DNA of 64,000 bases, from positions 1,488,001 through 1,552,000 of the forward strand of contig NZ_CP065958.1 of the NCBI RefSeq assembly GCF_041270065.1, read 5' to 3'. Shown piece by piece: positions 25,907-30,921 of this stretch; position 1 is the stretch's first letter, and each line of letters starts with the position of its first letter. The position numbers were made by a program, and so were the translations under genes. The notes beneath the pieces are model-generated. The model had not been told where the DNA came from, ran no database searches, and was given only the letters and a program-made list of their open reading frames with translations. Source of the DNA: Streptomyces fradiae. GTDB lineage: Bacteria; Actinomycetota; Actinomycetes; Streptomycetales; Streptomycetaceae.

Positions 25907-25929
25907 CCTGTGGACAGGTTGTCCACAGG
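25907..25929. promoter_or_regulatory. Inverted pair of DnaA boxes
   Basis: Perfect 10-bp arms CCTGTGGACA and TGTCCACAGG around GGT. This gives TTGTCCACA (25919-25927, plus strand), the preferred Streptomyces DnaA box, and CTGTCCACA on the minus strand (25909-25917), one base apart. They lie 27 bp upstream of the aldo/keto reductase -10 candidate. Confidence 0.7.
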
Positions 25930-25955: not shown

Positions 25956-25961
25956 TAATCT
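25956..25961 (+). promoter_or_regulatory. Leaderless -10 for the aldo/keto reductase operon
   Basis: TAATCT followed by 7 nt and ATG at 25969; no Shine-Dalgarno. It lies next to the DnaA-box palindrome. Confidence 0.5.
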
Positions 25962-25968
25962 CGCGGCC

Positions 25969-26955
25969 ATGGAGCAGAGGCATCTCGGACGTACCGGCCT
26001 GCGCGTGTCCCGGCTCGGGCTCGGCACCCTCACCTGGGGCCGGGACACCGACGAGCACGACGCGGCCGAGCAGTTGAAGGCGTTCTGGGACGCGGGCGGC
26101 ACGCTCGTGGACACCGCGGACGTGTACGGGGGCGGCGAGGCGGAGTATCTGCTCGGGCGGCTGATCGACGAGCGGTCCGGTCTGGTGCCGCGCCGCGACC
26201 TGGTGATCTCCACCAAGGCGGGCAGCGTGCCCGACCCGGACCGGCGCACGGACGGCTCGCGCGGGCATCTGCTCGCCGCGCTCGACGCCTCGCTCGCGAG
26301 GCTCGGCACGGACTACGTGGACCTGTGGCAGCTGCACGCCCCGGACCCCCACACCCCGCTGGAGGAGTCCCTGCAGGCCCTCGACATCGCGGTGCGCACC
26401 GGCCGCGCGCGCTATGTGGGGGTGGCCGGCTTCTGCGGCTGGCAGCTGGCCAGGGCCGGCACCTGGCAACTGGCCGGGGACCGGACGCGGCTGGCCGGGA
26501 CGCAGATGGAGTACTCGCTGCTGCAGCGGGGCGTCGAGCGCGAGGTGCTCCCCGCCGCGCTCGACCTCGGCATCGGGCTGCTGCCCTCCTCGCCGCTCGG
26601 GCGCGGGGTGCTCACCGGGAAGTACCGGCACGGCACCCCGGCCGACTCGCGCGGCGGCTCGGAGGCCCTGGCGCCCTTCGTCGAGCCCTATCTCGACGAC
26701 ACGGCGGGCCGGATCGTGGACGCGGTGCGCACGGCCGCGGACGGTCTCGCCACCACCCCGCTGCATGTCGCCCTCGCCTGGGTCCGCGACCGCCCCGGGG
26801 TCACCGCCCCGGTCGTCGGCGCGCGCAACGCGCAGCAGCTCGCGACCGCTTTGTCAGTGGAGAGCCTTAGTCTTCCTGACGAGATCTGCCGGGCCCTCGA
26901 CGACGTGTCGGCGCCCGTGCACCGCTATCCGGATCACGACTGGAGCACCTTGTGA
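25969..26955 (+). CDS. Aldo/keto reductase
   Basis: 328 aa. NADPH-dependent TIM-barrel oxidoreductase of the YdhF/Tas-like type. N terminus MEQRHLGRTGLRVSRLGLGT. Catalytic Asp/Tyr in TADVYGGGEAEYLLG (near residues 46-60), Lys in ISTKAG, His in WQLHAPDPHTPLEE, and the C-terminal cofactor region TAPVVGARNAQQL. The physiological carbonyl substrate is unknown. The start is set by TAATCT-N7-ATG. Its stop overlaps the GTG of the RecD2-like gene (GTGA), so the two proteins are translationally coupled, an unexpected pairing. Confidence 0.93.
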   Translation: MEQRHLGRTGLRVSRLGLGTLTWGRDTDEHDAAEQLKAFWDAGGTLVDTADVYGGGEAEYLLGRLIDERSGLVPRRDLVISTKAGSVPDPDRRTDGSRGHLLAALDASLARLGTDYVDLWQLHAPDPHTPLEESLQALDIAVRTGRARYVGVAGFCGWQLARAGTWQLAGDRTRLAGTQMEYSLLQRGVEREVLPAALDLGIGLLPSSPLGRGVLTGKYRHGTPADSRGGSEALAPFVEPYLDDTAGRIVDAVRTAADGLATTPLHVALAWVRDRPGVTAPVVGARNAQQLATALSVESLSLPDEICRALDDVSAPVHRYPDHDWSTL

Positions 26956-29090
26956 CCGAGCCTTCCGGCGACACCGCGCCGCCCGAGGCCGACGAGCCCA
27001 CCGCCGACGCCCAGGAGGCGCCCGCCGCACCCGGCACGGAGCCGGAGCCGGGTCCGGAGGAGCCCGGGACCGAGGAGCCCGGGACCGCCGAGGCCGGCGC
27101 CACGGAGGCCGGAGCGGAGGGCGCCGAGCCCGGGCTTTCCGAGGCGCAGGCGGAGCTGGCCGCGCAGCGGGAGCTGCGGGAGAAGATCGAGCGGCGCAAG
27201 GCGGAGCGGGGTGCGCCCGTCGAGGCGGGCGGCAAGCTGACGGGCACGGCCGCCGACCTGCTCGCCGCCGTCCGGGCGGTGGAGAGCGGCGAGAAGCCGG
27301 TCTCGGTCCCGCGCGCCGCGGTGCCGATTCCCGCGCCCACGCCGGAGCGGACCGCCCCGGCGGCGCCGCCGGAGACGACCGTGCGCCCGCCGGCCCCCGA
27401 GGCGCCGGTGGCGACCGAGGAGACCACGGAGGCCGTCCGGCAGGTCCTCCAGCGCGGCGGGGCCCCCGAGACGCTGGCCGCCCCGGTGGCCGCCGTGCTC
27501 GGCGAGGGCGCCGCCCGGGCCCTCGCGGACGACCCCTGGCAGCTGCTCGCGGTGCCGGGCGTGCGCCCCGAGCAGGCCGACGGCTTCGCCCGGGCGCTGC
27601 TCGGCGCGGAGTGCGGCCCCGCCGACCCGCGCCGCGCGGTGGCCCTCACCGCCTGGCTCCTGGAGCAGGCGGTCCTCAAGGGGCACACCGCCCTGGAGAT
27701 CGGCGCCGTCCGCGACGCCCTCGCCCGGCTCTCGGTGCCCGAGCCGGACAAGGCCGTCGACCTGGCGGTGTCCGAGGCCGCCATCCTCGTCTTCCAGGAG
27801 GAGGAGCAGGAGGAGCCGGAGGACGAGACCGAGACCGAGGGCGAGGCCGCCGCCGCGCCGGCCCCCGGCCCCGAGGTGCCGGTGCTGCTCGGCCTGGAGC
27901 GGTACGCGCTCGCGGAGGAGAGCCTGGCCGACGGGCTCGCCCGGCTGATCCGTACGGCCGAGGCGGCCGAGTGGGACGGCCCCGAGCTGGCGCGGGCCGC
28001 CGGGGCGCACGGGCTCGTGCTGCACACCGGCGGCGAGGCCGCCCGCGCCGAACCGGCCGCGCTGGCCGAGGCGGCCCGCGCGCGCGGCCTGCGGGTCGCG
28101 CTCGCGGCGCACACCGCGCGGGACGGCGCCCTGCCGGTGGCCGCGCTGCTGTCCGGCGCGGCCGGACCGGGCCGGGACGCCGAGGGCACCCTCGCCCTGG
28201 ACCTGCTCGTGGTCCTGGACGCGCCGCAGCTCGACGTGGAGACGGCGGCCACGCTGGTCGAGGCGCTCCCGGACGGCTGCCGCCTGGTGCTCAGCGGCGA
28301 TCCGTACGTCCTGGGCGCGGCGGGCCCCGGCAGGGTGTTCGCCGATCTGCTCGCCGCGAAGGTGACCCCGCAGATCGCCTCCCGGGTGCCCGACCCGGGC
28401 CCGATCGGCGAGCTGGTCTCGGGCATCGGCGCCGGCGAGCTGAACCAGGTGGCCGCTCCCGGCAAGGAGGTCGTGATCGTCCCGGTCCGGGACGCCGGCG
28501 AGGCGGTGCACCGCACGGTGCAGCTGGTCGCCGACTCGATCCCGCGGGCCATCGGCGTACCCACCGAGCAGACCCAGGTGATCACCGTGGGCCATGGCGG
28601 CTCGGCCGGCACCCGCGCGCTGAACGCGGCGCTCAAGGAGCGCCTCAACCCCGGCCCGGGCCGCTTCGGCGGCTTCGACCCGGGCGACCGGGTGGCCCAC
28701 TCCCCCGCCCCTGGCCGGACGGTGACCGGCACGGTCGTCTCGGCCGACGCCGAGGGCCTGCACCTGGACTGCGCGGGCGAGCGGGTCGTCGTACCGAAGG
28801 AGCGGGTCGAGTCCGCGCTGCGGCACGGCTGGGCGCTGACCGCGCACCAGGCCGCCGGGGCGCGCTGGCCCGCGGCGGTCGTGGTGCTGCCCGGCGACGC
28901 GGCCGGCGGCCTCACCCGCTCCTGGGTCTACACGGCCTTCGGCCGCGCGGAGCGCCATCTGTCCGTGGTCCACGGGGTCGAGCAGGCGCTGCCGAGGGCG
29001 GTGGCCGAGGGCCGCGAACCGGAGCGCACGACTCGGCTGCGGCCCCTCCTGGAGGCGCTGCTGCACGAGGAGGACGAGGCCGGGGCGTAG
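26952..29090 (+). CDS. RecD2-like protein with degenerate helicase motifs (HhH domain protein)
   Basis: 712 aa from GTG overlapping the previous stop. Residues 1-~150 are acidic and Pro/Ala-rich, probably disordered. Residues ~160-250 look like the RecD2 helix-hairpin-helix region (DDPWQLLAVPGVRPEQADGF, then DPRRAVALTAWLLEQ). The helicase core follows, but where Walker A belongs the sequence reads VLHTGGEAARAEPAALAEAA (near 357), with no GKT. Motif II is VVLDAPQLD in place of DEAS. Motif III SGDPYVLGAAGPGRVFADL (~447), the SAGTRALN region (~550), an SH3-like insert FDPGDRV (~575), LTAHQAAGARWP (~628) and YTAFGRAERHL (~660) remain recognisable. It is therefore probably a non-catalytic RecD2 relative, perhaps a DNA-binding scaffold. 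Confidence 0.75.
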   Translation: MTEPSGDTAPPEADEPTADAQEAPAAPGTEPEPGPEEPGTEEPGTAEAGATEAGAEGAEPGLSEAQAELAAQRELREKIERRKAERGAPVEAGGKLTGTAADLLAAVRAVESGEKPVSVPRAAVPIPAPTPERTAPAAPPETTVRPPAPEAPVATEETTEAVRQVLQRGGAPETLAAPVAAVLGEGAARALADDPWQLLAVPGVRPEQADGFARALLGAECGPADPRRAVALTAWLLEQAVLKGHTALEIGAVRDALARLSVPEPDKAVDLAVSEAAILVFQEEEQEEPEDETETEGEAAAAPAPGPEVPVLLGLERYALAEESLADGLARLIRTAEAAEWDGPELARAAGAHGLVLHTGGEAARAEPAALAEAARARGLRVALAAHTARDGALPVAALLSGAAGPGRDAEGTLALDLLVVLDAPQLDVETAATLVEALPDGCRLVLSGDPYVLGAAGPGRVFADLLAAKVTPQIASRVPDPGPIGELVSGIGAGELNQVAAPGKEVVIVPVRDAGEAVHRTVQLVADSIPRAIGVPTEQTQVITVGHGGSAGTRALNAALKERLNPGPGRFGGFDPGDRVAHSPAPGRTVTGTVVSADAEGLHLDCAGERVVVPKERVESALRHGWALTAHQAAGARWPAAVVVLPGDAAGGLTRSWVYTAFGRAERHLSVVHGVEQALPRAVAEGREPERTTRLRPLLEALLHEEDEAGA

Positions 29091-30144: not shown

Positions 30145-30921
30145 CTAGGCGGCGCTGCGGGCCCGGCGGTAGATCACCGAGCCGGCGAGCAGCAGGCCGG
30201 CGCCGGCGGGCACGATCAGGCCGAGCGGACCGGCACCGGTGCTCGCGAGCTCCTCGGTGGGCCCGTTCGGCGTGAGGGACCGCGTACTCGGCGTGTTCGG
30301 CCCGTGCGAGGCGCCGGGAGTGCCCGGGTGCTCGCCCTCGCCGCGCGGGGGCGTGCTCGGGGTGCCGGGCGTCTCCGGCGTCCCCGGGGTCTCGGGCGTG
30401 CCGGGGTGTCCCGGGGTGGTCGGCTCGACGCCGTAGCCGCAGTCGTTGCCGTAGGCCGCGTTGCCGGCACCGACGCCCGTGACGCTGTTCCCGCAGACGT
30501 TGACGGGGGCGTCGATCGGGACCTCGACGGTGTTGCCGGAGCCGACGCCCGGGGAGTCGGAGCCGTGACCGCCTGCCTGGGAGCCGCCCTCGTCGCCGTA
30601 ACCGCCGGGGCTCCCCGGGCTGCCGGGACCGCCGGGGCTGCTGGGACCGCCCGGCGCTCCGGAACCGCCCTGGTTGGCACAGGAGTTGCCGGACACCGGG
30701 TTCAGCAGTCCGATGACGGAGACGGTGTTGCCGCAGACGTTGACCGGCGCGTGGACCGGGACCTGCACGGTGTTGCCGGACGCGACGCCCGGCGAGTCGG
30801 CCGCGGCGCCGCTCGCGCCGGACGAGGCGTGGGCGTAGCCCCCGCCGAGGGCGATCATGCCGCCGGCCGCGGCGACCGTGATGATGCTCTTGCGCGTGAT
30901 GACGCGTGTGACCTGTCGCAT
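30145..30921 (-). CDS. chpC: Long chaplin (two chaplin domains, sortase-anchored), ChpC-like
   Basis: 258 aa. Secreted, cell-wall-anchored hydrophobic protein that helps form the amyloid-like coat of aerial hyphae. A signal peptide (ITVAAAGGMIALGGGYAHA) precedes two chaplin domains, at ~42-80 (SPGVASGNTVQVPVHAPVNV) and ~125-165 (SPGVGSGNTVEVPIDAPVNV), each with two Cys. Gly/Ser/Pro-rich linkers separate them. The C-terminal sorting signal is LASTG at ~225 followed by a hydrophobic helix and RRARSAA; LAxTG is the motif of Streptomyces class E sortases. The short chaplin chpH lies just upstream, the same arrangement as chpC-chpH in S. coelicolor, on which the symbol rests. Confidence 0.93.
   Translation of the reverse strand: MRQVTRVITRKSIITVAAAGGMIALGGGYAHASSGASGAAADSPGVASGNTVQVPVHAPVNVCGNTVSVIGLLNPVSGNSCANQGGSGAPGGPSSPGGPGSPGSPGGYGDEGGSQAGGHGSDSPGVGSGNTVEVPIDAPVNVCGNSVTGVGAGNAAYGNDCGYGVEPTTPGHPGTPETPGTPETPGTPSTPPRGEGEHPGTPGASHGPNTPSTRSLTPNGPTEELASTGAGPLGLIVPAGAGLLLAGSVIYRRARSAA

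Follow-up and report, generated by a model that had tools for sequence, protein, structure and literature searches.

The 64,000-nucleotide stretch of Streptomyces fradiae DNA analyzed here (contig NZ_CP065958.1, positions 1,488,001 to 1,552,000; hereafter, the window) encodes a RecD2-like protein that has retained the helicase fold and lost the catalytic residues, and which we refer to as the pseudo-helicase. The loss is ancient, the gene is under purifying selection, and it overlaps an upstream gene for an aldo/keto reductase (AKR). An initial annotation, made from the letters alone, had proposed a maintained RecD2-type pseudo-helicase; orthologues, selection and predicted fold all support that proposal. 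The protein represents a known helicase family in motif-dead form, rather than a new kind of system. The explanation we favor, with somewhat better than even confidence, is that this conserved protein serves as an ATP-free clamp or adaptor on DNA or on a partner, and is co-operonic with the AKR.

The family assignment rests on profiles and on a predicted structure. The HHH_RecD2 helix-hairpin-helix (HhH) domain (PF14490) is recognized at residues 158-246 with 39 bits (7.8e-10; cut-off 27), while UvrD_C_2 (26.7 bits) and AAA_30 (22 bits) score under their Pfam cut-offs of 27.4 and 27, and the TIGR01448 RecD2 equivalog scores 115 bits, below its cut-off of 500. At the sequence level, which was the level of this comparison, the N-terminal OB-like part ahead of the HhH region has neither an alignment counterpart nor a Pfam match. 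A first structural model was poor past about residue 480, and a second was used instead; it has the predicted RecD2 tertiary fold over domains 1A, 1B, 2A and the SH3-like insert. The HHH_RecD2 match, the SH3-like insert, motif VI and this fold bear out the earlier reading that RecD2 landmarks occur in the right order, and the structural check proposed with that reading gave the same answer.

To define the motifs, the canonical RecD2 of the same genome (C1:2745644-2747809; 844 bits) was used as reference. At the Walker A position the pseudo-helicase reads TGGEAARAE, versus TGGPGCGKS in the canonical protein, and at motif II it reads VVLDAPQLD versus VVVDEASMLD; that is, the Walker B Asp has become Leu and the Glu has become Asp. 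Neither the GxxGxGK[ST] Walker A pattern nor the Walker B DE pair of RecD2 is present, and at the P-loop position of the predicted model just three residues separate strand and helix. Motif III is GDPYVLGAAG versus GDVDQLPSVG, motif V is TAHQAAGARWP versus TIHRSQGSEYP, and motif VI, in which the Arg is retained, is YTAFGRAERHL versus YTAVTRARK. The loss of the Walker A Lys and of the DE pair in an intact frame is therefore as initially annotated. Table 1 lists the features of the locus.

Table 1. Features of the pseudo-helicase locus, in window coordinates.
Feature	Position	Strand	Remarks
DnaA-box sequence TTGTCCACA	25919..25927	+	putative site; 50 bases ahead of AKR start
TAATCT, -10-like element within footprint GGCCAGTAATCTC	25956..25961	+	presumed promoter role and leaderless start
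Aldo/keto reductase (AKR)	25969..26955	+	PF00248, 9.9e-61; TGA overlaps pseudo-helicase GTG
RecD2-like pseudo-helicase gene	26952..29090	+	single open frame, GTG start, 712 amino acids
Acidic low-complexity N-terminal tail, residues 1-61	26952..27134	+	nearly unconstrained; model confidence (pLDDT) mostly <50
Conserved helical segment, residues 62-113	27135..27290	+	two model helices; invariant columns between E68 and G113 in 50 rows
HHH_RecD2 domain	27423..27689	+	PF14490
Former Walker A / motif I, residues 355-372: LVLHTGGEAARAEPAALA	28014..28067	+	alignments; model
Former Walker B / motif II, residues 417-428: DLLVVLDAPQLD	28200..28235	+	alignments
Motif III remnant, residues 444-460: RLVLSGDPYVLGAAGPG	28281..28331	+	alignments
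SH3-like insert, residues 577-625	28680..28826	+	model strands; profile alignment with 3e1s
Motif V remnant, residues 626-641: GWALTAHQAAGARWPA	28827..28874	+	alignments
Motif VI, residues 657-670, Arg665 retained: SWVYTAFGRAERHL	28920..28961	+	alignments

The conservation of these replacements was assessed in 201 rows, namely the window, 80 loci (one labelled Microtetraspora, the others Streptomyces) and 120 database proteins (Streptomyces-named or nameless), with some genes present twice. Because the rows are the best 80 of 463 loci and the best 120 of 4608 proteins, they describe nearer relatives; several locus alignments used stop-to-stop frames, and hence carry extra residues ahead of the start. 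No Lys is found at residues 354-372 in any of the 201 rows. H358, G360, G361, E367, D423, R478, H632 and Q633 are identical throughout, Leu replaces the Walker B Asp in 197 rows, and Arg665 is retained in 199. The alignment of orthologues, also suggested at the outset as a check, rules out a strain-specific loss or a sequencing error, since orthologues carry the same loss; as judged from these rows, the replacements are fixed among nearer relatives, and do not look like random decay. The retained Arg665 and D423 could be taken to mean that a nucleotide is still used, via an unusual site. We regard this as very improbable, given the missing motif I Lys, the shortened P-loop position of the model and the near-universal Leu at Walker B.

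To place the loss in time, we turned to relatives outside the genus. A PF14490 match occurs in 104 of 296 genomes of the class, and 20 weak-type matches outside the order were selected by hand from the list and fetched. Twelve of these stretches carry intact GGPGTGKS and DE motifs, and eight lack both. Where names are given, the dead rows belong to Nocardiopsis, Streptomonospora, Thermobifida, Actinomadura, Spirillospora and kin, and the intact rows are Mycobacteriales, Frankiales, Frankiaceae or Streptosporangiaceae metagenome bins. The 118 database rows that were aligned, taken from the best 120 of 230, divide into 101 dead and 17 intact ones. Trees were built without the motif columns from hand-picked rows (78 of 204 aligned, then 48 of those 78; L204, L208, L210, L213 and L218 are among the rows omitted). 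In the tree of 78 rows, the dead ones form one clade of 47 inside the intact ones, with a Shimodaira-Hasegawa-like approximate likelihood ratio of 99; in the tree of 48, the dead clade of 28 is supported 100/100 and occurs in 100% of 200 bootstrap trees. An arrangement with two losses, in which the dead rows of Nocardiopsis/Actinomadura type join the eight active rows closest to the dead clade (the named one, P0344, is a Streptosporangiaceae metagenome bin), is disfavored by the approximately unbiased test (p 0.0032), which is weakened in that the group was chosen after the first tree was known. Long-branch effects on the dead clade cannot be wholly excluded.

These trees place the motif loss in one branch, comprising the Streptomyces order and its Nocardiopsis, Thermobifida and Actinomadura relatives. 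They also show the canonical RecD2 rows on a separate, distant branch, and a recent duplication of the genome's own canonical RecD2 is thereby rejected. On this phylogenetic ground the initial annotation is corrected: rather than deriving recently from canonical RecD2, the pseudo-helicase is part of a distinct clade of short RecD2-like proteins of Actinomycetes, often encoded beside an AKR gene and with intact members elsewhere. Relics of the motifs survive in places. Of the 13 order rows that do not belong to the main Streptomyces set, four still have Lys-Thr at motif I; these four (L200-L202 and L204) are of a single genus, in which DE is lost. Among 109 Nocardiopsis/Actinomadura-type rows the Walker B Asp survives in 4 and the Glu in 50. 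Such relics, with lineage-specific replacement letters, suggest that the erosion went on in parallel after the split; that is, there is one dead clade, within which each residue was probably lost completely in parallel.

Within the Streptomyces order, a PF14490 match is present in 197 of 197 sampled genomes, and at least two matches in 190, with a minority of the second matches read. The pseudo-helicase was found in all 14 order genomes in which the stretch was read (four of the window's genus and ten outside), and an AKR together with an F420-type gene in 13 of these stretches; one copy, L204, sits on a short contig. No intact motif I or motif II DE is seen in the 13 aligned order rows (L208 omitted). 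Canonical RecD2 scores above cut-off in 13 of 15 genomes examined, and its presence there and in the window's own genome would suit a regulatory partner of RecD2, acting in a mixed complex or by competing for DNA. We consider this role unlikely, because two Streptomyces drafts, each 99% complete (G456 and G458, loci L205 and L206), keep the pseudo-helicase and have no canonical RecD2 match, and because the motif-intact short type also occurs without a canonical match, for example in G572 and G528 (98% and 96% complete).

Selection was assessed as the ratio of non-synonymous to synonymous changes (dN/dS), by plain Nei-Gojobori counts on 78 genes (the window and 77 loci; L107 dropped out), using the 2,963 of 3,003 pairs that show moderate divergence. 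As these are related pairs of GC-rich genes and the count is plain, only comparisons between regions are safe. The median dN/dS is 0.30 for residues 154-700, versus 0.14 for the adjoining AKR. By region, it is 0.78 for residues 1-61, 0.28 for 62-113, 0.55 for the linker 114-153, 0.36 for the HhH region (154-283), 0.88 for an acidic linker (284-310), 0.30 for 311-480, 0.13 for 481-576, 0.39 for the SH3-like insert and 0.18 for 626-700. Domain 2A is thus the most constrained part, on a par with the AKR. The new acidic tail reported initially is indeed acidic, but it is among the least constrained parts, and the conserved N-terminal part is instead residues 62-113. This segment, spanning LSEAQAELAAQRELREKIERRKAE to GKLTGTAADLLAAVRAVESG, is strongly conserved in Streptomyces and has no Pfam match at E 1. 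That the gene is a decaying relic without function might be argued from the vanished ATPase motifs and from one broken copy (L208); we hold this to be extremely improbable, since 2A is constrained like the AKR, several replaced residues are identical in every one of the 201 rows, and the gene is present in all 14 order stretches.

What was kept can also be measured against 210 columns that are at least 95% fixed in 58 motif-intact rows. Given in the order 14 Streptomyces rows, 13 further order rows (three Streptomyces) and 109 Nocardiopsis/Actinomadura-type rows, the share of fixed columns kept is 0.89, 0.87 and 0.90 for HhH; 0.78, 0.69 and 0.77 for non-motif positions of 481-576; 0.73, 0.74 and 0.72 for those of 626-700; 0.66, 0.55 and 0.65 for motifs V and VI; 0.55, 0.43 and 0.56 for SH3; 0.53, 0.47 and 0.59 for non-motif positions of 311-480; and 0.42, 0.42 and 0.53 for the motifs within 311-480. 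By this sequence measure, retention is highest for the HhH domain and the 2A core, with drift throughout what was ATPase domain 1A/1B and in the SH3-like insert.

The gene neighborhood is also conserved. The GTGA overlap with the AKR gene (26952-26955) is present in 78 of 78 AKR-bearing loci; its GTG shares the frame of the main open reading frame in 77, L107 being the exception. The AKR lies immediately upstream in 78 of the 80 best loci. The exceptions are L110, whose stretch starts near the pseudo-helicase gene, and L061 (Streptomyces), in which the gene is present and 4 kb upstream is available, yet neither an AKR nor an F420-type gene is seen. Genes for an F420-type, a 210-residue, a DUF5703, a chaplin-like and an M20 protein each occur in 76-77 of the 80 stretches. 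The long downstream gene at 30145-30921 on the minus strand, which has repeated GNTV-type segments and which we take to be chaplin-like, lies beside the locus in 76 of 80. Outside the order, an AKR is found in 14 of the 20 class stretches, i.e., 7 of 12 intact and 7 of 8 dead, not directly adjacent in L210, L219 and L227; one of the six other stretches, L211, is truncated by a contig end. This distribution suggests that the linkage is older than the motif loss. It could also indicate, together with the overlap in Streptomyces, that the pseudo-helicase serves the AKR, for instance as a scaffold or redox-linked partner. That role seems to us quite unlikely, in view of the six class stretches in which no AKR is seen, and of motif-intact relatives in the same position that resemble real helicases, which implies that the AKR linkage arose around a DNA enzyme.

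Dead superfamily 1 (SF1) helicases are known to be reused, as in RecC, which reads Chi within RecBCD. The retention of HhH and 2A without ATPase motifs is what a DNA-reading subunit of such a larger repair machine would show, and a RecC-like role has been considered on this basis. It too is rather improbable in our estimate: no nuclease or recombination gene was found among the three adjoining genes scanned or the flanks compared across loci, the search for partners being confined to these.

The initial annotation also placed DnaA boxes ahead of the gene. One box of this kind is genus-wide; it precedes the AKR, and there is no cluster before the pseudo-helicase gene itself. Against a variable background ahead of the AKR start, two conserved footprints are conspicuous, namely GTTGTCCACAGG (-51..-40) and GGCCAGTAATCTC (-19..-7). 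With the window included, TTRTCCACA before the AKR is exact in 69 of 79 cases, with one mismatch in 5 and two in 3, and is unrecognizable in 2. It is mainly a Streptomyces trait, as it occurs in 2 of 4 further stretches inside the genus and in 1 of 23 AKR-bearing stretches outside. A facing half-site at 25909-25917 (8 of 9) forms a palindrome with the box, and recurs in 1 of 78 loci (L035, a 95% relative). The genome has 68 TTRTCCACA matches versus 16 for a reversed control, and 46 TTRTCCACAGG matches versus 1 for the reversed pattern, several as close pairs or triplets (e.g., C1:659929-659953 and 3394547-3394609). Judged by the motifs, DnaA may bind the predicted box, and the AKR transcript may be leaderless. 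In a more specific scenario, which we think improbable, the motor was lost once, before the Streptomyces order and the Nocardiopsis-Actinomadura lineage split, giving an ATP-free DNA reader or fork clamp that in Streptomyces became tied to DnaA through the box at a leaderless operon promoter.

Two TTGTCCACAGG boxes lie close upstream of the genome's canonical RecD2 (C1, about 2747885-2747920). Common DnaA control of both RecD2 genes was rejected, as none of four other Streptomyces canonical loci (L031-L034) has a box within 400 bases upstream; three of them (L031, L032 and L033) show (C/T)TGTC(G/A)GTG-N8-TAnnnT, which we take to resemble the DNA-damage (PafBC) promoter motif. A DnaA-box repair regulon was likewise rejected, because ten box-adjacent genes chosen from 51 box stretches have mixed functions (GAF, P450, NIF3, radical SAM, M48, SSB, PaaA/PaaC, KptA, LiaF-like and YgjP-like).

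Strong preservation despite a decayed ATPase suggests a job that probably requires the shape of a helicase and not its motor. In the clamp or adaptor explanation, the pseudo-helicase and the AKR would be made from one operon, and the protein, needing no ATP hydrolysis, would be a passive DNA-binding clamp, adaptor or reader, whose HhH and 2A (and C-terminal) surfaces would grip either a partner protein or DNA in single-stranded or forked form. Several observations weigh against it. The AKR offers no hint of a DNA role. Erosion of the 1A motifs is only slightly stronger than that of non-motif 1A/1B positions (share kept, 0.47-0.59) and of the SH3-like insert (0.43-0.56), so that decay reaches beyond the motor residues, and the insert is missing altogether in the genus of L200-L202 and L204. 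Motif Ia and V residues, presumably DNA-touching positions in RecD2, are largely altered, and within Streptomyces HhH is under weaker constraint than 2A. In addition, the L208 copy (G358) is split over several frames beside its AKR, by assembly error or real decay, and L107, which keeps GTGA, has its GTG in another frame, owing either to a frameshift within the tail or to faulty assembly.

The protein matters in three respects. It is widespread in Streptomyces and apparently unstudied, and the presumed promoter ahead of it carries a conserved DnaA-box sequence. Database entries for some close relatives call them ATP-dependent RecD-like DNA helicase or DNA helicase RecD, names against which the sequence argues. 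Finally, the family has living branches with and without the motifs, in many cases in one and the same gene neighborhood, so that the value of a helicase fold stripped of its engine can be tested directly. No description of the pseudo-helicase was found by title and abstract in the open-access literature. The relevant passages of one paper report RecD2 in Streptomyces and mention no second copy there (PMC1193525). According to another paper, B. anthracis with the catalytically inactive RecD2 variant K368Q is sensitive to mitomycin C (PMC12143592), which suggests that the pseudo-helicase could probably not simply replace RecD2.

Among known systems, the closest is the SF1B helicase RecD2 (TIGR01448; D. 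radiodurans 3e1s, 3gp8 and 3gpl; B. subtilis RecD2), which has the same order and fold of HHH_RecD2, 1A/1B, 2A and SH3-like insert. The pseudo-helicase differs in lacking the Walker A Lys and Walker B DE, in altered motifs Ia, III, IV and V, in an N-terminal OB-like part not recognized by sequence, and in its equivalog score, far below the cut-off. RecC and AddB are helicase-fold subunits that lack motor function, and the likeness lies in the non-motor use of this fold; they are larger, with partner and nuclease links unseen at this locus. The motif-intact short RecD2-like proteins of Actinomycetes (e.g., P0123 and L219-L224) belong to the same clade as the pseudo-helicase, and where an AKR accompanies the intact type an F420-type gene is present each time. 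In L218, truncated by a contig end, motifs V and VI were not seen. Unlike the pseudo-helicase, these relatives carry GGPGTGKS, DE(A/T)S, GDPAQLPSIG, the motif V sequence HRAQGSEW and an intact motif VI.
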